DNA from: Brachybacterium sillae
GTDB lineage: Bacteria > Actinomycetota > Actinomycetes > Actinomycetales > Dermabacteraceae
Direction of reading: 5' to 3'
Assembly: GCF_025028335.1 (NCBI RefSeq)
Contig: NZ_JAFEUW010000001.1
Span: 2,418,001 to 2,482,000, forward strand
Length of the DNA: 64,000 bases
Of the stretch, positions 54,906-64,000 are shown in pieces. The notes under the pieces were generated by a model that made no database searches, was not told where the DNA came from, and saw only the letters and a list, made by a program, of their open reading frames with translations. A program made the position numbers and the translations under genes. Within the stretch, counting starts at the first letter, position 1. Each line of letters begins with the position of its first letter.

Positions 54906-56231
54906 TCAGGCGGCCTGCCCGGCGCGCTGCAGCAGCGCCTGCCGGTTCGCGGTCATGCGTTGCAGCAGCTCGTGCTCCACCGCGATCGCCTTTGGTGTCG
55001 CGCCCTCCGCGAGGATCCGCTGGCGGGCCGAGGCGAGTTCCGCGCTGTCGGCGATGAAACGCTTCATCAGCGGCTTCGCCCCGATCGCGGCAGCCCAGCG
55101 ACGCCCCTCCCGGCGGCCGCCCCAGGTGCCGAGCATGGCGACCTCCTCCTGGGTGAGCCAGCCCACGCCGGCGTACTCCGACAGCCGTCGGCGTGTGTGG
55201 CGCACCTCGTCGACCACCAGCCACCCGATCAGACCCAGCCACAGGGCGCTCTCGAGCATCTGCAGCACCACCATCAGCAGCAGGGACAGCGCCGATCCGC
55301 CCAGCATCAGCGGCAGGAAGGTCGCGGTCCCGTTCCACAGGGCGTGCAGGGCGATGCCGGGCCAGGTGGCGACGAGGAAGACCAGCACCCCGCGCCAGGT
55401 GCCACCGTGGCGCACCGCCAGGCCGACGATCACCCCGGTCAGGGAGGTGTACATGCAGTGGCCGAAGATGCCGAAGACTCCGCGCAGCACCACCGTGACA
55501 CCGGAGGAGAACAGGGCGATGTCCATGCCGTATTCGAGGCCGGTGGTGAACGCCCGCGTGTAGTAGAGGATGTTCTCCACGAAGGCGAAGCCACCGCCGA
55601 TCAGTGCCCCGTAGATCAGACCGTCCAGTGGCCCGCTGAAGTGGCGGCGGGCCACCAGCAGGATCACCAGCAGACCGAGGCCCTTGGAGGTCTCCTCCGT
55701 GATCGGGGCGCTGACGATGGCCCCCATGACGGCCGCCCCCGTCTCCCCGCCGATCGCGTACCCCAGGGAGCTCATCGCGGAGTTGATCACCAGGGATATC
55801 GCCACGGCCACCACCGCGCCCCAGAACACCGCGGTGAGCAACAACGGGAGGGGTTCGGGGTCCCAGCGGTCCGCGATCCACACCAGCAGGGCGATCACCA
55901 GCAGGGACAGGGCGGCGAGGAAGGCGTACACCAGCCACCAGGCCGGGTTGGCGCGGCCCTGCAGGGCGAACAGTGCGAACCCCAGCCCCAGCACCGTGAT
56001 GAAGCCGAGGCCGAGGATCCCTGCGAGGATCCACTGCACGATGGAGCGCACCGGCATGCCGGTGGGCGCGGGATGCCGGGCGACGGCCTGGACGTACGGC
56101 GTCTGCTGCGCCCAGGCGCTGCGGGGCTGCTCCTGGCTGGGGGCCTGGGGCGCCGGGTGGGACGCGGCACCGTACTGCTGGCGGGGATCGGCTCCGGCCT
56201 GCTGCGGAGCGCTGAACTGCGGGTGGGTCAT
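54906..56231 (-). CDS. PrsW-family intramembrane metalloprotease
   Basis: A 441-residue membrane protein with an N-terminal Gln/Ala/Pro-rich cytoplasmic tail of about 55 residues and eight or so hydrophobic segments. The catalytic motifs are PITEETSKGLG (EExxK), FAFVENILYY and HCMYTSLTG. PrsW cleaves anti-sigma factors in other bacteria; no sigma/anti-sigma pair lies here. The C-terminal soluble tail is unusual and about 100 residues long. The start has GGAAGG upstream; it is divergent from clpB. Confidence 0.87.
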   Translation of the reverse strand: MTHPQFSAPQQAGADPRQQYGAASHPAPQAPSQEQPRSAWAQQTPYVQAVARHPAPTGMPVRSIVQWILAGILGLGFITVLGLGFALFALQGRANPAWWLVYAFLAALSLLVIALLVWIADRWDPEPLPLLLTAVFWGAVVAVAISLVINSAMSSLGYAIGGETGAAVMGAIVSAPITEETSKGLGLLVILLVARRHFSGPLDGLIYGALIGGGFAFVENILYYTRAFTTGLEYGMDIALFSSGVTVVLRGVFGIFGHCMYTSLTGVIVGLAVRHGGTWRGVLVFLVATWPGIALHALWNGTATFLPLMLGGSALSLLLMVVLQMLESALWLGLIGWLVVDEVRHTRRRLSEYAGVGWLTQEEVAMLGTWGGRREGRRWAAAIGAKPLMKRFIADSAELASARQRILAEGATPKAIAVEHELLQRMTANRQALLQRAGQAA

Positions 56232-56380
56232 GTCAGCCTTCCGGGGTGGGACGCGCCGCTCGGCGCGGGCTCAGGCTATCGGGGAGGTGGCGGACTCACC
56301 GGCAGATCATCCGCAGTGGGGACAACCGGTTGACCCGGGCGGGTCCGACCCCCTGGTCTGCGGACCCCGTGACCCGGGGA

Positions 56381-56412
56381 TCGACATCAGGGTTGAGCGG
56401 AATAGACTCAAG
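56381..56412 (+). promoter_or_regulatory. clpB promoter with HAIR element 3
   Basis: TCGACA (56381-56386), a 16-bp spacer and TAGACT (56403-56408) form a promoter. A HAIR repeat GTTGAGC-N7-ACTCAAG at 56392-56412, with a perfect right half, covers its -10. This ties clpB to HspR. The 243-bp gap 56232-56474 contains only this control region and the PrsW start. Confidence 0.75.
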
Positions 56413-56474
56413 ATCGCGGACGTTGTGCTGATCGGTGGGGACACCGCCACCGGAACGACCATCGGAGGAGACGC

Positions 56475-59165
56475 GTGGACTTCCACTTCACGACCCGCTC
56501 CCAGGACGCGGTGCAGGCGGCTGCGACGCGCGCCGAACTGAGGGGCAATCCGCAGGTGCTGGCCGTGCACCTGCTCGCCGAGCTCGCCCGTCAGGCCGAC
56601 GGCATCGCCCGGGCGGCCCTGATCGACGCGGGCGCCGATCCGGAGCGCATCGGCGGGGAGGCCGACCGCGTGATCGACGGCCTGCCGCGGGTCAGCGGCA
56701 GCTCCACGGCCCGCCCGACCTTCCAGGGCACCGGATATGACGCCCTCGAGGCCGCCCGCCGCGAGGCCGACTCCCAGGGTGCCCAGTACCTCTCCACCGA
56801 GCACCTGCTGCTCGGCATCGCCCTCGGGGACGACGACGCCGCGCGCATCCTGCGCCGCGCGGGCGCGACCCCCGAGGTCCTCCGCACCGCCGTCACCCGA
56901 CTGAAGGGAACGACCATGAACGACAGCCAGAACCCCGAAGGCACCTTCCGCAGCCTCGAGAAGTTCGGGGTGGACCTCACCGAGCGCGCCCGCGAGGGCC
57001 GACTCGACCCCGTGATCGGACGCGATGCGGAGATCCGTCGCGTGGTGCAGGTGCTCTCGCGCCGCACGAAGAACAACCCGGTCCTGATCGGTGAGCCCGG
57101 CGTCGGCAAGACCGCCGTCGTCGAGGGTCTCGCCCAGCGCATCGTCGCCGGGGACGTCCCGGAGTCCCTGCGCGGCAAGCGGTTGATCTCCCTGGACCTG
57201 TCCTCGATGGTCGCGGGGTCGAAGTACCGCGGTGAGTTCGAGGAGCGGATGAAGTCCGTCCTGGACGAGATCCGCACCAGCGACGGCCAGATCATCACCT
57301 TCATCGACGAGCTCCACACCGTCGTCGGCGCGGGCGGCTCCGAGGGTGCCATGGACGCCGGCAACATGCTCAAGCCCATGCTCGCCCGCGGTGAGCTGCG
57401 GATGGTCGGTGCGACCACGCTCGATGAGTACCGCGAACGGATCGAGAAGGACCCGGCCCTGGAGCGGCGCTTCCAGCAGGTGTTCGTCGGCGAGCCCAGC
57501 GTCGAGGACACCGTGACGATCCTGCGCGGGCTGAAGGACAAGTACGAGGCGCACCACAAGGTGTCGATCACCGATGCCGCGCTGGTGGCCGCCGCGACCC
57601 TCTCCGACCGGTACATCACCGGCCGTCAGCTGCCCGACAAGGCCATCGACCTGGTCGATGAGGCCGCGTCGCGCCAGCGGATGGAGCTGGACTCCTCTCC
57701 GGTGGAGCTCGACATCCTGCGTCGTCAGGTGGATCGCCTGAAGATGGAGGAGATGGCGTTGCAGGGCAGTGACGACCCCGGCAGCGTCGCGCAGCTGGAG
57801 TCGGTGCGCTCGCAGCTGGCCGATCGCACCGAGCGCATGACTGCGCTGTCGGCGCGGTGGGAGCGGGAGAAGGCCGGCCTCAACCGGGTCGGCGAGCTCA
57901 AGGCCCGCCTGGAGGAGCTGCGCATGCAGGCCGACCGCGCTCAGCGCGAGGGTGACCTGGCCACCGCCTCGAAGATCCTCTACGGCGACATCCCCGCCCT
58001 GAAGACCGAGTTGCGCGAGGCCGAGGAGCAGGAGGCCGACGGCCCCGCTCCGGAGGAGAAGCCTCTGGTCGCGGAGAAGGTGGGCCCGGATGACATCGCC
58101 GAGGTGGTCGCGAACTGGACCGGCATCCCCGCCGGCCGTCTGATGCAGTCCGAGACGACGAAGCTGCTGGAGATGGAATCCCTCATCGGCCGACGTCTGA
58201 TCGGACAGCAGCGAGCCGTGCAGGAGGTCTCCGATGCGGTGCGGCGCGCCCGCGCCGGCATCTCCGACCCCGATCGACCCACCGGGTCCTTCCTCTTCCT
58301 CGGCCCGACGGGCGTGGGCAAGACGGAGCTGGCGAAGTCGCTCGCCGAGTTCCTCTTCGACGATGAACGCTCGATGGTGCGCATCGACATGTCGGAGTAC
58401 GGCGAGAAGCACAGCGTCTCCCGCCTCGTCGGCGCCCCTCCGGGGTACGTCGGCTACGAGGAGGGCGGCCAGCTGACGGAGGCCGTGCGGCGCCGCCCCT
58501 ACAGCGTGATCCTGCTGGATGAGATCGAGAAGGCGCACCCGGACGTCTTCGACATCCTGCTGCAGGTGCTCGACGACGGTCGCCTCACCGATGGTCAGGG
58601 CCGCACGGTGGACTTCCGCAACACGCTGCTGATCCTCACGTCGAACCTCGGGGCCCACTTCTTGCAGGACCAGGGGCTCTCCCCGGAGGCGCGCACCGAG
58701 GCCGTCATGGGTGTGGTGCGCTCGGCCTTCAAGCCGGAGTTCCTCAACCGCCTCGATGCCGTCGTGATGTTCGACCCGCTCAGCCCCGAGGAGCTGGCGC
58801 GGATCGTCCGCCTGCAGATCGACTCGGTGGGTCGCCGCCTGGCCGACCGCCGGATCCGCCTGGACGTCACCGACGAGGCCACGGCGTGGCTGGCCCGCAC
58901 CGGATTCGACCCGGCCTACGGGGCTCGCCCGCTGAAGCGGCTGGTGCAGAAGGAGATCGGCGACGGCCTGGCACGGCTCATCCTGCGCGGCGAGGTGCAG
59001 GATGACCAGGGCGTGCGGGTGGACCTCGACGGCGCGGGAGAGGGCCTGCGCCTCTCGGTCACCGACGGTGAGGACCGCGCGGAGGCCGCGGAGACGGCCC
59101 GGGGCGAGTCCCGCGAGGAGCCGCCCGCCGAGGAACGGACCGCAGGATCCGACACGGCTCGTTGA
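56475..59165 (+). CDS. clpB: ATP-dependent disaggregase ClpB
   Basis: An 896-residue ClpB. Residues 1-145 form the N-domain; the first AAA+ module has Walker [11 protein letters not shown] and Walker [11 protein letters not shown], a complete M-domain coiled coil of about 130 residues follows, and the second AAA+ module has [10 protein letters not shown] and [12 protein letters not shown]. It rescues aggregated proteins with DnaK, GrpE and DnaJ. The C-terminal tail is acidic and rich in Glu/Ala/Arg and longer than usual. GTG 56475 has a GGAGGAG Shine-Dalgarno. It is likely part of the HspR regulon. Confidence 0.96.
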
Positions 59166-59204
59166 ATAGTTGACAACTCCCCCGGGGGTGGTTAACTCTT
59201 CAAT
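59161..59204 (+). promoter_or_regulatory. Promoter embedded in a large imperfect palindrome, upstream of the secreted peptide
   Basis: TTGACA (59170-59175), a 17-bp spacer and TAACTC (59193-59198) lie within an imperfect inverted repeat centred on CCCCCGGGGG (59179-59188). The outer arms are TTGAA-n-AGTT and AACT-n-TTCAA. The arms therefore overlap both the -35 and the -10, as expected for a dimeric repressor operator; it could instead be a terminator of clpB. Confidence 0.45.
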
Positions 59205-59281
59205 GACCTTCGGGTGAGGCAGTGCCCGGGGGCCGCAACACCTTCGAGAGACTCCGATCGCTACAACGAGGAGAGTGGATC

Positions 59282-59434
59282 ATGAAGAAGTTCGCGAAGA
59301 TCGCCGCTGCGTCGCTCGTCGCCGGTGGGGCCGTCTTCGGCGGTGCCACCGCAGCGTCCGCCGACACCGGGTACCAGCTGCCCGAGGGCAGCGACTACCA
59401 GCAGACGCTGTACGAGTACTACTACGCGCGCTGA
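59282..59434 (+). CDS. Secreted 23-residue Tyr-rich peptide precursor
   Basis: A 50-residue precursor with a Sec signal (MKKFAKIAAASLVAGGAV) and an ATAASA-D cleavage site after residue 27. The predicted mature peptide has 23 residues, six of them Tyr, and ends LYEYYYAR. No Cys and no leader-type double-Gly cleavage are present, so it is not a typical lantibiotic. ATG 59282 has GAGGAGAG upstream; the longer in-frame start at 59222 is rejected. A dedicated promoter and a terminator bracket it. Function is unknown. Confidence 0.7.
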   Translation: MKKFAKIAAASLVAGGAVFGGATAASADTGYQLPEGSDYQQTLYEYYYAR

Positions 59435-59449
59435 TCGCCCCTGCCGCAA

Positions 59450-59485
59450 GAACGGGCCGCACCCCCTCGGGGATGCGGCCCGTTC
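59450..59485. terminator. Terminator hairpin after the peptide gene
   Basis: A perfect 12-bp stem (59450-59461 with 59474-59485, GAACGGGCCGCA/TGCGGCCCGTTC) with further inner C/G pairing sits between the peptide stop and the end of leuS on the other strand. No U-run. Confidence 0.75.
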
Positions 59486-59522
59486 GCGATCTCCGGGGCC
59501 GGCAGGACCGGATCCGGCGGCC

Positions 59523-62411
59523 TCAGACCACCAGGTTGACGAGCTTCGGGGCGCGCACGATCACCTTGCGCACCTCCTGGCCACCCAACACCTGCTGCAC
59601 CGTCGGATCCGCCAGCACCAACGCCTCCAGCTCGGTCTCCGAGATCTCCGGATCCACCTCGAGCCTGTGCTTCACCTTGCCCTTGACCTGCACCACGCAG
59701 GTCACGGCGTCGGCCTTGACCAGCTCCGGGTCGGCCGTCGGGTAGGCCTCGCGCGCCAGTGACTGCTCATGTCCCAGGCGCTGCCACAGCTCCTCCGCCA
59801 GGTGCGGCGCGAAGGGGGAGACCATCAGCACCAGCGGCTCCACCGCGGCGCGCGGCGCCCGCCCCTCCTTCGTCAGGTGGTTCACCAGCTCGATCAGCCG
59901 GGCGATGGCGGTGTGGAACTGCAGGCCCTCCATGTCCCGCGTCACCTGGTCGATGGTGCGGTGGACCGCCTGGGCGGTCGCCCGGGGCATCTCCTCGTCG
60001 GAGACGACCAGCTCCCCGGTGGTCTCGTCCACCACCAGTCGCCACAGACGCTGCAGGAAGCGCTGGGCACCGACCACCGCTCGGGTCTCCCAGGGGCGGG
60101 AGAGCTCCAGCGGACCCATGCTCATCTCGTACACGCGCAGGGTGTCGGCCCCGTACTCGCGGTACATGTCGTCGGGAGCCACCGCGTTCTTCAGCGACTT
60201 GCCCATCTTCCCGTACTCCTGGGAGACGGGTGTGCCCTGATAGGTGAAGGTGCCGTCGTCCTCGTGCACGACCTCCTCGGCCGGCACATAGACCCCGCGC
60301 GAGTCGGTGTAGGCGTAGGCCTGGATGTAGCCCTGGTTGAACAGACGGTGGAAGGGCTCCTGGCTGGAGACGTCCCCACGGTCGAACAGCACCTTGTGCC
60401 AGAAGCGGGCATACAGCAGGTGCAGCACGGCGTGCTCGACCCCGCCGACGTACAGATCCACACCGCCGACGTCGCCCTCGCGGCGCGGTCCCATCCAGTA
60501 CCGCTCGTTCTGCGGGTCCGTCAGACGCTCCGCATTGGTCGGATCGGTGTAGCGCAGCTCGTACCAGCTGGACCCGGCCCAGTTGGGCATGGTGTTGGTC
60601 TCGCGACGGTACTCCTTGGGGCCGTCCCCGAGGTCAAGGGTCACGTGCACCCAGTCCTCCGCGCGGGAGAGCGGGGTCTGGGGTTCGGTGTCGGCATCCT
60701 CCGGGTCGAAGGTGCGCGGGGAGAAGTCGCTGACCTCCGGCAGCGGCACCGGCAGCATGTCCTCCGGGAGGGCGATCGGGGTCTCCGGGTCGTCCACGGC
60801 ATAGACGATCGGGAACGGCTCACCCCAGTACCGCTGGCGGGAGAACAGCCAGTCCCGCAGACGGTAGGTGGTGCGGGCATGCCCGAAACCGCGCTCCTCG
60901 GCGAAGGCCGTGGCGCGGCGCTTCGCCTCGTCCTTGTCGAGACCGTTGAGGTCAAGGTCGGCGCTGGCGGAGTTGATCTTCTCGCCCTCACCGGTCCAGG
61001 CGCCCCCGGTGAAATCCTCCGGCGGGCGGACGGTGCGGATCACCGGCAGCTCGAAACGCTCGGCGAAGGCGAAGTCGCGTTCATCCTCGGCCGGGACGGC
61101 CATGATCGCGCCGGTGCCGTACCCGGTGAGCACGTAGTCGGCGGTGAACACCGGCAGCAGACGCCCGTCCATCGGGTTCACCGCCATCAGCCCGGTGAAC
61201 ACACCGGTCTTCTCACGGTCCTCGGCGGTGCGCTCGGCATCATCCCGGGCAGCGGCCTGCTGCTGGTACGCGGCGACGGCCTCCCGCGGCGAGGGGGCGT
61301 CCGCACGCCACGCGGCCGGGGCCTCGGCCGGCCACTGGTCGGGCAGAGCGGCCGGGTCCGCCAGGAGCTCGTGTTCCGGTGCCAGCACGCAGAAGGTCGC
61401 ACCGAAGAGGGTGTCGGCGCGGGTGGTGAAGACATCGAAGGTGGTAGCGGTGCCCTGCACCGCGAAGGTGATCTGGGCACCCTCGCTGCGGCCGATCCAG
61501 TGCCGCTGCATGGCCTTGACGGCCTCGGGCCAGTCCACCCGGTCCAGGTCCTCGAGAAGCCGGTCGGCGTACGCCGTGATCCGCATGTTCCACTGCCGCA
61601 GGCGCCGACGGAACACCGGGAAGTTGCCGCGCTCGGAGCGGCCGTCCGCGGTGACCTCCTCGTTCGCCAGCACGGTGCCCAGTCCCGGGGCCCAGTTGAC
61701 GGGGGTGTCGGAGACGTACGCCAGACGGAAGGCGTCGACCACCTTCCGCAGCGCGGCCGGATCGTCCGCCAGGCGCGTCGTGTCGACCTCGGGCAGCTCG
61801 ATGCCGCTGCGTTCAGCCAGCGCGACGGCATCGATCTCCCCGCTGCGCAGGCCCTCTCGCAGGTCCGCGATGGGGCGGGCGCGGCCGGTGATGCCGTCCG
61901 CGTTCGGGGCGTCCGGGTCGTACCAGGAGTCGAAGATCCGCAGGAAGATCCACTGGGTCCAGCGGACGAAGTCCTCATCGGTGGTGGCGAAGGACCGGCG
62001 GGCGTCATGGGACAGGCCCAGCCGCGCCAGCTGCCAGCGCATGTTCGCGATGTTCTGCTCGGTGGTGACCCGCGGGTGGGTGCCGGTGGTGATGGCGTAC
62101 TGCTCGGCCGGCAGACCGAAGGCGTCGTACCCCATCGTGTACAGGACGTTCTTGCCCAGCATGCGCTGGTGGCGCGCCACCACGTCGGTGGCGATGTACC
62201 CCAGGGGATGCCCCACGTGCAGTCCCGCCCCCGAGGGGTACGGGAACATGTCCATGATGAACATCTTCTCGCCCAGCTCCGCGCCGTCGGCGGCGAGCTC
62301 ACCCACCGGGTTGGGGGCGGCGAAGGTCTGCTCGTCCTGCCAGCGCTGCTGCCAGCGCAGTTCGATGTCATCGGCCAGCGCGGCCGTGTAGCGGTGCGGG
62401 GTCTCGCTCAT
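59523..62411 (-). CDS. leuS: Leucyl-tRNA synthetase
   Basis: A 962-residue class I synthetase. HIGH is HVGH at 65-68 ([13 protein letters not shown]), KMSKS is replaced by KMGKS ([11 protein letters not shown]), a variant that I recall from actinobacterial enzymes, and the editing (CP1) domain has [13 protein letters not shown] and [15 protein letters not shown]. It charges and proofreads tRNA-Leu. The ATG at 62411 has GAAGGACG upstream, weak and distant. About 115 nt of leader upstream contain an attenuator with a leader peptide, so its expression probably responds to Leu-tRNA charging. Confidence 0.97.
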
Positions 62412-62464
62412 CGCTCAGTCGTCCTTCGTGAGTGGGGTGCAGGCCGTATGGCGCCCTGACATGG

Positions 62465-62499
62465 AAAAACCCCCGCACAGGCGAGGGGAGCCGCATCGG
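62465..62499 (-). terminator. Attenuator terminator in the leuS leader
   Basis: On the minus strand CCCUCGC/GCGGGGG (62487-62481 with 62476-62470, one G-U pair, loop CUGU) is followed by UUUUU (62469-62465), an intrinsic terminator before leuS. A second, upstream hairpin GCCGCGUCGG/CCGAUGCGGC (62527-62518 with 62499-62490) begins at the leader stop codon. Confidence 0.75.
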
Positions 62500-62526
62500 T
62501 GCCCGCTGGGGCCTTCTCCGACGCGG

Positions 62527-62553
62527 CTACGGAAGCAGGAGCACACGCGCCAC
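62527..62553 (-). CDS. leuL: Leaderless leucine leader peptide of leuS (MARVLLLP)
   Basis: GTG 62553 opens GTG GCG CGT GTG CTC CTG CTT CCG TAG, an eight-residue peptide with three consecutive Leu codons, all different. It starts six bases after TACACT (62565-62560) with no Shine-Dalgarno. The stop overlaps the left arm of a hairpin; a terminator with a U-run follows. Ribosome stalling at the Leu codons when Leu-tRNA is scarce would alter folding and allow read-through into leuS. It is too short to be called by length alone; context makes it convincing. The gene symbol leuL is used by analogy. Confidence 0.75.
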   Translation of the reverse strand: MARVLLLP

Positions 62554-62559
62554 GGCGCC

Positions 62560-62565
62560 AGTGTA
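62560..62565 (-). promoter_or_regulatory. -10 box for the leuS leader transcript
   Basis: TACACT on the minus strand ends six bases before the leader-peptide GTG. A weak TCGACG at 62586-62581 may be the -35. Its position indicates that transcription begins at the leader start codon. Confidence 0.5.
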
Positions 62566-62712
62566 CGCGGGTGACTGGTCCGTCGACGGTGCGGCCGGGC
62601 CGTGGACGACCCGCCGCCCCGGGAGGCTCGGCCACCGGTGTGAGGCACGGGACGCCCCGGATGTGACCCGCGAGGCGGCGAGCGGAGGCTGCGCGGGCGT
62701 AGCGTCGGAGGC

Positions 62713-62928
62713 ATGGACAGCGCGAACCCCACCGGCAACGGACGACACGCCTCGGGGAAGGCGATGCCGAGGTGTCCGTTGCGGCCCGGTGACCCGTGCT
62801 CCCTGTGCGTCCCCGGGGCCACTGGCCCCCACGACTGCCAGACTGTGCGTCTGGTGATGGAGGACCCGGATCTGCGGGAGATGCTGCGCGAGAAGCAGGC
62901 CGCGTACCGCGCCTCCACGGCGGCCTGA
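62713..62928 (+). CDS. Small Cys-rich protein (DUF6767-like)
   Basis: A 71-residue protein. The core from residue 18 has four Cys in MPRCPLRPGDPCSLCVPG and PHDCQTVRLVM, followed by an acidic helix PDLREMLREKQAAY. The spacing resembles a small metal-binding site (CPLRPGDPCxLC). It is a conserved actinobacterial family of unknown function as far as I recall. ATG 62713 lies 7 nt after TAGCGT and probably is leaderless. It stands alone between leuS (divergent) and panD. Confidence 0.75.
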   Translation: MDSANPTGNGRHASGKAMPRCPLRPGDPCSLCVPGATGPHDCQTVRLVMEDPDLREMLREKQAAYRASTAA

Positions 62929-62956
62929 CCCTGCGTCGGCACTGCGGCGGTCGGGC

Positions 62957-63364
62957 TCAGCGGGTGGGCAGCTGGTCGGTCGCCCCGGGCACGGGCTGCC
63001 CGGCATCGTGGCCGATCTCCACGATCCGGTTGTTCTCGTCGACGTGCACCACCCGCGGTTGGTGCTGGGCCATCTCCTCCGGAGTGAACATCCCGTAGGC
63101 CATGACGATCACCAGATCGCCCGGGTTCACCAGGTGGGCGGCCGCCCCGTTGATGGAGAGGATGCCACTGCCGCGCTCGCCCTCGATCACGTAGGTCTCC
63201 AGGCGGGAGCCGTTGGAGACGTCCACCACCGCGACCTTCTCGTTCTCGACCAGACCGGCGGCATCCAGCAGGTCGGCGTCGATGGTGACGGAACCGATGT
63301 AGTGCAGGTCCGCCTGGGTCACGGTCGCACGGTGGATCTTCGAGGTCATCAGAGTGCGCATCAT
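62957..63364 (-). CDS. panD: Aspartate 1-decarboxylase precursor PanD
   Basis: A 135-residue proenzyme that makes beta-alanine for pantothenate and CoA. Self-cleavage occurs between Gly24 and Ser25 (HYIGSVTID), and the residue numbering then matches E. coli PanD exactly, which supports ATG 63364. The core follows with [14 protein letters not shown] and [15 protein letters not shown] promoter-like CAGACT ends 8 nt before the ATG. Monocistronic here; other pan genes are not in the window. Confidence 0.97.
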
Positions 63365-63460
63365 CGCCGTCCAGTCTGGCACGCCGCGGGTGAACGGCGA
63401 AGGCCGAAGCGTGTGGGATGCGCGATGATGGTCGGACTCGTCCCGGAAGGAATCCCCACC

Positions 63461-64000
63461 ATGCCCAAGGCCCGTCGGCGCTCTGCGCACCGCTCCGAGC
63501 GTTTCGAGGAGATGGCGCTGCCCGAGGAGCTTCTCGTCGCCCTCGAGGAGCAGGGGCTGGTGCGCGCCTTCGAGATCCAGGAGGCGATCCTCCCGGACGC
63601 CCTCGCCGGGCGGGACGTCCTGGCGCGGGCCGAGACCGGCTCCGGCAAGACCCTCGCGTTCGCGCTGGCGCTCACGGCCCGCTTCCGGGGTCGCCGCGCG
63701 CATCGCCGCCGCCCCCTGGGCGTGGTGCTGGTGCCCACCCGGGAGCTCGCGGTGCAGGTGGTCGACACCCTGCATCCCTTCGCGCGGGCCGTCGGGATCC
63801 GCGCGCAACTGGTCTCCGGCGGCATGAACATCGACAAGCAGGCCGAGGCCCTCGCCCGCGGCGTCGAGATCATCGTCGCCACCCCCGGCCGCCTGCTGGA
63901 CCTCGCCGAACGAGGCGACCTGATGCTCGACCGGGTCGAGAGCACCGTCATCGACGAGGCCGACCACATGGCCGACCTCGGCTTCCTCCCGGATGTGGCG
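63461..64000 (+). CDS. DEAD-box RNA helicase, 3'-partial
   Basis: The first 180 residues of a DEAD-box ATPase, running off the end of the window. Motifs in order are the Q-motif FEIQEAI, motif I AETGSGKT, Ia PTRELAV, Ib TPGRLLD and II DEADHM. It would unwind RNA using ATP. ATG 63461 has GGAAGGA upstream at 9 nt. The N-terminus is short and basic ([12 protein letters not shown]). The C-terminal half and any extension lie outside the window. Confidence 0.95.

Follow-up and report, generated by a model that had tools for sequence, protein, structure and literature searches.

The leuS locus of Brachybacterium sillae

The window analysed here, a stretch of 64,000 nucleotides from Brachybacterium sillae, carries on its minus strand the gene leuS (59523–62411), which encodes a leucyl-tRNA synthetase of 962 amino acids and scores 879.1 bits against the NCBIfam model TIGR00396 (cut-off 548.4). 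Directly before it, on the same strand, lies a compact leader. A −10 promoter element, TACACT (62560–62565), can be read from the sequence 6 nt before the start of a leader ORF (62527–62553), GTG GCG CGT GTG CTC CTG CTT CCG TAG, which would encode the peptide MARVLLLP. The Leu codons CTC CTG CTT occupy 62533–62541, with CTT at 62535–62533, and a 5-nt spacer (62528–62532) leads from CTT to the GCCGCG arm of a hairpin, here termed hairpin 1:2. Its left arm (AGCCGCGTCGG, 62518–62528) and right arm (CCGATGCGGCT, 62489–62499) were defined by folding and by covariation in a 40-row alignment (A5), and are followed by an intrinsic terminator, found by a terminator scan, with a 7 bp stem (CCCTCGC/GCGGGGG), a loop of 4 nt and a U5 run (62487–62465). 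The U run stands 53 nt before the start of leuS, and the probable leuS Shine–Dalgarno sequence, GAAGGA (62422–62427), was read from the sequence outside the terminator hairpin.

Much of this layout had been proposed in a preliminary description made from the sequence alone. The promoter hexamer, the six-base gap, the GTG and the eight-codon ORF with its three Leu codons, Pro and stop are all present on the minus strand, and the terminator lies exactly where that description had placed it. The left arm of the hairpin does start at the stop codon, its first base being the A of TAG, but the 10 bp originally counted become 11 pairs, one of which is G-U. The terminator is the sole terminator-like site in 62380–62960 (shuffled mean 0.0), and the pattern TAnnnT, 6–7 nt, ATG or GTG, 2–6 codons and three Leu codons occurs once in the 64-kb window, both strands included, and in none of 60 dinucleotide shuffles of it. 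The stability of the fold is unremarkable (z scores of 0.02 over 142 nt and −1.03 over 99 nt), and since fold energies are uninformative here, the case for the leader rests on comparison with relatives. A generic sigma-70 scan of the locus did not find the promoter, so that the assignment of the −10 box likewise draws on its near-constant distance to the start codon in relatives.

Upstream of leuS and on the same strand lies panD, encoding aspartate 1-decarboxylase (62957–63361; TIGR00223, 167.8 bits). An ORF of 71 amino acids with several Cys residues is found on the opposite, plus strand (62713–62928), between panD and the leuS promoter.

Leaders before leuS in relatives

In a sample made up of the window genome and 35 others of the genus, leuS loci were fetched from 30, and the leader is present in all 30 (L003–L032, of which L003 is the window's own copy). 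More widely, LeuS homology combined with a regular expression, with no RNA model involved, yielded 56 distinct leaders with a start codon, short ORF, Leu run and hairpin, drawn from 110 leuS loci which were partly duplicates and gave 94 distinct upstream regions. These leaders occur in Brachybacterium, one Dermabacter, Ornithinimicrobium, Serinicoccus and Virgisporangium, as well as in several genera of the Pseudonocardiales (Prauserella, Amycolatopsis, Actinophytocola, Thermocrispum and others). The Leu codons upstream of leuS are thus conserved in relatives, a check that the preliminary description had itself set, and its reading of the layout as a ribosome-mediated attenuator before leuS is borne out by the same 56 leaders.

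The regular expression, which scanned 230–260 nt before leuS, is incomplete, as a leader in locus L086 that it missed was found by a covariance model (R1, below). Within that scan it found no leader in, for example, Corynebacterium, Bifidobacteriaceae, Schaalia, Cellulomonas and some Amycolatopsis, and among near relatives Dermabacter hominis, Helcobacillus and two other Dermabacteraceae are without one in the 230 nt scanned. A script detected the terminator in 53 of the 56 leaders; it found none in L017, L072 and L081 and misplaced it in L080, L082 and L109. L017 (1326–1447) is a Brachybacterium leuS leader whose terminator is without a U run.

The spacing of the promoter is nearly constant. 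The −10 box stands 6 nt before all 33 GTG starts and 6 or 7 nt before 17 ATG starts, making 50 of 56 leaders, and 9–10 nt before the remaining 6 ATG starts, all of which belong to Ornithinimicrobium and Serinicoccus, where a short 5′ leader would be expected. Because the regular expression demanded TAnnnT 4–11 nt before the start, the presence of the box in 56/56 is given by construction, and it is the near-constant distance that constitutes the finding. A homologue of this leader before leuS in Streptomyces lividans has been reported as transcribed leaderless, according to the available part of that study (PMC8079986), and by analogy the leader ORF in the window is probably translated from the first nucleotide of its RNA.

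The sensing codon

CTT is the last codon of the Leu run in 53 of the 56 leaders, or in 54 if L013, whose run of four (CTC CTG CTT CTG) had its sensing codon set by hand to the third, is read at that codon. By comparison, CTT makes up 0.74% of the 4315 Leu codons in 57 leuS genes. At the penultimate position CTG, CTC and CTT all occur, and most runs open with CTC or CTG. In one leuS leader (L145, 1501–1600) the single Leu codon left is CTT (MASQQQRLIGPR), with hairpin and terminator retained. We therefore regard CTT at 62535–62533 as the probable conserved sensor codon of the window leader. The preliminary description had placed weight on the three different Leu codons; this does not hold up, the first two being variable and only the last conserved (53 or 54/56), and the proposal that three tRNA-Leu isoacceptors are sensed was dropped for the same reason.

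The window genome encodes one tRNA-Leu each with the anticodons GAG, CAG, UAG and CAA, as judged from the nine long tRNA genes examined among 49 tRNA matches. By the usual decoding rules the GAG anticodon reads both CTC and CTT, and since these two codons share it, two isoacceptors would suffice for CTC CTG CTT. We found no earlier record of the rule that the last sensing codon is CTT, which is thus apparently new.

Hairpin geometry and covariation

In 54 of the 56 distinct leaders, exactly 5 nt separate the sensing codon from GCCG[C/T]. In 86 leaders measured with a script-based stem finder, loop lengths span 3 to 58 nt, and hairpin and terminator stand 0–4 nt apart, in a set where many leaders are near-identical, the stem of L051 is mis-called and the exact gap depends on which outer pairs are counted.

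The pairing itself is strongly conserved. Among the 30 Brachybacterium leaders 98.7% of cells are paired and 3 pairs change on both sides, giving 9 cells with two-sided change against 2.2 in shuffles, and the 24 leaders from outside the genus have 97.4% of cells paired and 2 pairs with two-sided change. Some measures fall within the shuffle range in these smaller sets, the number of pairs with two-sided change being equalled in 19/500 shuffles for the 24 others and in 54/500 for the 30 Brachybacterium leaders. Two misaligned rows, L017 and L051, were excluded from alignment A2. Across the phylum the signal is clearer: in the 40 leaders of alignment A5 (41 chosen sources, of which L004 fell below threshold), which was fitted to the structure in a way that favours covariation, 98.3% of cells are paired, 10 of 15 pairs show two-sided change, and 55 cells with such change are found against 9.2 in shuffles, with 0/500 shuffles as high on any of five measures. 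Covariation is common to both helices, the terminator too being conserved with two-sided changes in relatives.

Length of the leader ORF

The end of the ORF wanders. Leader ORFs of 8, 12, 13, 15 and 21 codons occur among the distinct leaders, so that a stop codon at the base of the hairpin, as described for the window, is not general. Within Brachybacterium the ninth codon is TAG in 12 of 31 distinct leaders, giving the 8-codon ORF, and CAG, ACG or CCG in the other 19, giving 12, 15 or 21 codons. When these two classes are placed on a LeuS tree of 32 rows (the 31 and one Dermabacter) 3 changes are needed; well-supported branches force all three, and the tree leaves their direction unsettled. 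On this tree the Brachybacterium ORF switched between 8 and 12–21 codons at least three times. In classical attenuation the place of the stop codon decides the position of an unhindered ribosome; here it moved repeatedly, which indicates that its place is free to shift. These leaders show that a leader peptide may shrink to 8 codons, with its stop moving repeatedly, while the sensing part stays fixed.

A wider family before branched-chain amino acid genes

Covariance models extend these observations beyond leuS. R1, a model of 24 leaders none of which comes from Brachybacterium, matches the window copy with 23.7 bits (E 0.0011 over 75 loci). In a whole-genome search it found places in 34 of 396 genomes, missing the window genome under the stricter filters used there; a second place in one genome, G036, lies at 859661. 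A further model, R3, searched with strict filters against the same number of actinomycete genomes (396), returned 47 places in 45 genomes and 23 of 246 genera at E values up to 0.001. All 47 stand before branched-chain amino acid genes, as called by tblastn, reading of the sequence and NCBIfam: 31 before leuS, 10 before leuA, 4 before citramalate synthase and 2 before ilvB. R3 was trained on 13 of the 47, and 18 of the leuS places were not in its training set; the 16 non-training places L189–L204 comprise 9 leuA, 4 citramalate synthase, 2 ilvB and 1 leuS. R3 itself contains CTT and thus favours such matches, a bias of which the count of 53–54/56 given above is free.

The codons of the leader follow the gene behind it, with Leu runs before leuS and leuA, Ile before citramalate synthase and Val/Leu/Ile before ilvB. 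Of the four citramalate synthase leaders (L198, L199, L200 and L202), L198 has CTT ATT, two have ATC ATT and the fourth has ATC ATT ATC, and the two ilvB leaders (L194/L207 and L203/L208) carry GTC CTC GTA CTT ATT in one and CTT CTC GTC GTC GTT in the other. The last sensing codon before citramalate synthase and ilvB is U-ending, as in leuS leaders, although in L200 the U-ending codon is the last but one. The leuA leaders (L147, L189, L191, L192, L193, L195, L196, L197, L201, L204 and L206) have the same build, and CTT closes the Leu run in 10 of these 11, the exception being L147, whose run finishes with CTC TTG. The ATG or GTG start of the leader ORF was not visible in L194 and L201. The assembly of L208 has a break in the ilvB frame, and its leader is separated from ilvB by a small hydrolase gene.

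Of all the evidence for sensing of charged tRNAs by the leaders, this match between codon and pathway is the strongest. Sequence comparison shows the leuS leader to be widespread in actinomycetes and related to those of leuA, citramalate synthase and ilvB. In the literature searched, which left subscription journals mostly outside, there was no leader of this kind before citramalate synthase and nothing relevant on leaderless leaders in Brachybacterium, and a common family of such leaders is not named in the titles and abstract openings covered; Lopatovskaya 2010, reportedly a review of such attenuators, may hold prior art.

How the leader may act on leuS

We consider the leader to be a ribosome-mediated transcription attenuator of leuS, with a probability of about 0.82, and one that very probably raises LeuS synthesis when charged tRNA-Leu runs short. 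To what was observed (the anatomy and its conservation, covariation in both helices, the constant CUU with its 5-nt spacing, and leader codons that suit the gene), this adds a stall, an order of folding and a terminator-preventing step that we infer, together with a leaderless start taken from the homologue. Transcription would start at or beside the GTG of the 8-codon ORF, so that a ribosome could bind directly at the 5′ end of the RNA. With ample charged Leu-tRNA it would translate through CTC-CTG-CTT and leave, hairpin 1:2 would close, the adjacent terminator would form and most transcripts would end at about 62465. When charged tRNA-Leu is scarce, particularly the GAG isoacceptor, which is expected to decode the rare CUU, the ribosome would wait with CUU in its A site. 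Judging from the general dimensions of the mRNA channel of ribosomes, its leading edge should then touch the base of hairpin 1:2 and open it, freeing the right arm beside the terminator, upon which RNA polymerase would read on into leuS. Prevention of the terminator may perhaps proceed through weak GCGG:UCGC pairing of the right arm with the terminator arm, as a short and kinetic interaction, or through the geometric block described below. Apart from the weakness of any antiterminator, points that speak against the attenuator reading are the missing U run of L017, the single Leu codon of L145 and the several near relatives in which no leader was seen within the scanned 230 nt.

In strict classical attenuation, as in the Escherichia coli trp operon, a stable antiterminator of arm 2 with arm 3, mutually exclusive with the terminator, would form once the ribosome masks arm 1. 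Classical attenuation requires a pairing that sequesters the 5′ arm of the terminator once the left arm is masked. The order of ORF, hairpin and terminator fits it, and antiterminators have been reported for Streptomyces leuS leaders in the part of the 2005 survey available to us (PMC1262725). Our folding tests, in which the ribosome-covered part was masked and folds were made with and without the last terminator arm, give a divided answer. With the first 31 nt blocked, the terminator falls from 0.85–0.90 to 0.06 or less in the window copy (L003), L006 and L018, and its probability drops below 0.5 in some blocked state in five of 24 chosen leaders (L003, L004, L006, L018 and L032), so that a competing fold is possible in the model for the window genome taken alone; in the other 19 of the 24 it stays at or above 0.5 in every blocked state tried. 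Over 53 leaders (L017, L072 and L081 being absent, and L080, L082 and L109 kept with a misplaced terminator) there is no excess of pairing over shuffles, the 5′ terminator arm pairing upstream with a mean of 0.41 when the left arm is blocked, against 0.44 in shuffles (Wilcoxon p 0.11). The test is of moderate power, since in a similar one three of five E. coli leaders pass (the share of 100 shuffles as high being 0 for thrL, 0 for ilvL and 0.04 for hisL) and two fail (0.21 for leuL and 0.32 for trpL).

At the level of the alignment there is a weak GCGG:UCGC signal in favour of the classical arrangement. In 12 Brachybacterium rows this hairpin reaches 0.52 against 0.06 in shuffled columns, at −2.3 kcal/mol and with no covariation, and fainter antiterminator signals appear over 26 other rows (0.20 against 0.03) and over the full set of 40 (0.11 against 0.02), with no antiterminator pair in the best fold of either the 26-row or the 40-row set. 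Against it, the terminator arm varies (CCCTCGC, CCCTCGT, CCCCTC, CCCTCC, CCCCTT) while the right arm is CGCGGC in most leaders, and mutual pairing of the two would not allow this freely; the leader stop codon, moreover, moved at least three times in Brachybacterium. The folding models thus suggest that a classical antiterminator is detectable at best weakly in leuS leaders, and we would give the strict trp-like arrangement a real chance while leaning against it. By eye, the Leu run can also be paired with the 3′ arm of the terminator; this was rejected, as a ribosome on those codons would favour termination, which is the wrong direction.

A purely geometric mode of action can be envisaged for attenuation of leuS, and it might embrace the leuA, citramalate synthase and ilvB leaders as one phylum-wide attenuator family. 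Here the sensor would be a single U-ending cognate codon (CUU, AUU or GUU), presumably decoded by a tRNA with a wobbling G34, and the waiting ribosome would abut the base of a hairpin fixed 5 nt downstream in leuS leaders and, judged by eye, roughly 5–8 nt downstream of the sensor in the non-leuS members. With the terminator 0–4 nt past the hairpin, a waiting ribosome would block it sterically and a departed one would not. If true, this would explain why loop, ORF length and stop drift while both junctions stay fixed. We offer this proposal as speculative, and it is rather unlikely to be correct in full.

The remaining explanations place the leader outside transcription attenuation. One is that it acts on translation, the peptide or hairpin controlling access to the leuS ribosome-binding site in the manner of the LEU element, and translation control has indeed been proposed for leuA in Actinobacteria, in the part of that survey available to us (PMC1262725); a strong intrinsic terminator nevertheless stands between leader and leuS, and the GAAGGA region lies outside the hairpins and is weakly paired in the fold, making this improbable. 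Another is that the terminator is an ordinary one, belonging to the upstream gene or acting as a constitutive brake on leuS, with the small ORF incidental. Many genes have upstream terminators, and panD does lie upstream on the same strand, but the absence of the combination from the 60 window shuffles, the conservation of start codon, Leu run and 5-nt spacing in 56 leaders and the way codon identity tracks gene function leave very little room for such a coincidence. A T-box or other known riboswitch class can be set aside, even though unusual T-boxes have been proposed for ileS in some Actinobacteria (PMC1262725, available part), since Rfam searches contradict it, Rfam 15 giving no family at E up to 1 in 55000–64000 of the window and none at E up to 0.5 in 19 related loci.

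Comparison with known systems

The preliminary description had called a leaderless peptide of this kind little described, which needs correction. Attenuators of leuS were predicted in Streptomyces coelicolor and Streptomyces avermitilis in 2005 (PMC1262725), and in S. lividans TK24 the leader leuL2, with the peptide MRAVRLLLSEPR, was described in 2021 as leaderless and followed by a hairpin and a U run before leuS (PMC8079986), as far as the available parts of both papers go. Judged by sequence, the window leader is homologous to this Streptomyces leuS leader. Both are short leaders with three Leu codons, placed before leuS with a hairpin and intrinsic terminator and leaderless, the window leader by prediction, and the genomes carrying the leuL2 peptide, which stands before leuS in 17 of 30 loci examined (covariance-model places, tblastn), share with the window the GCCGCG arm and CTT as last codon. 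The two differ, by the same partial account (PMC8079986), in length (12 codons in leuL2, 8 in the window), in the GTG start of the window leader, in the stop codon, which lies inside the left arm of the hairpin in leuL2 and at the hairpin base in the window, and in the transcript start, which comes from data for leuL2 and is inferred for the window leader. The leader found in genomes having the S. lividans peptide is lacking from Streptomyces sp. NP160 (L055), a strain whose LeuS scores next to Quadrisphaera and which is possibly misnamed.

The LEU element of leuA likewise has a run of Leu codons in the leader ORF of an actinobacterial leucine gene, and has been described as a pseudoknot in which the Leu codons pair with the leuA Shine–Dalgarno sequence (PMC1262725); S. 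lividans LeuL1 is leaderless and reported to be without a typical terminator (PMC8079986). The window leader, with its hairpin and terminator, is set apart from the LEU pseudoknot by layout and by description, insofar as the latter is available (PMC1262725). The leuA leaders found in this study, too, look distinct from the described LEU element.

Like the E. coli attenuators leuL, trpL, hisL, thrL and ilvL, the window leader combines an ORF containing cognate codons with a downstream intrinsic terminator; unlike them, it probably has no 5′ untranslated leader, its ORF is only 8 codons long, and a clear antiterminator was not found. In mycobacteria, leaderless polycysteine ORFs have reportedly been described by Canestrari et al. 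in 2020. These share with the probable mechanism of the window leader the use of a leaderless mini-ORF of cognate codons as an attenuator. They respond to cysteine and work by translation attenuation, not through an intrinsic terminator, according to the available part of PMC13236596. The same source reports transcription attenuation with experimental support for the ilvB1NC leader of Mycobacterium tuberculosis, an actinomycete operon for branched-chain amino acids under ribosome-mediated control, as is probable for the window leader; it differs in its leader of 166 nt, which is not leaderless, and in the defined antiterminator proposed for it (PMC13236596, available part).

A leaderless leuS leader is thus already known in Streptomyces, and the wider family was not found on record. 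What the present comparison adds to scattered Streptomyces leuS predictions is a family that spans Actinomycetota and can be tested, a covariance model for it, and a rule for leuS leaders, in which the sensing run closes with the rare U-ending codon and the hairpin begins 5 nt further on. Set beside the systems above, it raises the question of whether a leaderless mini-ORF can control termination without a classical antiterminator.
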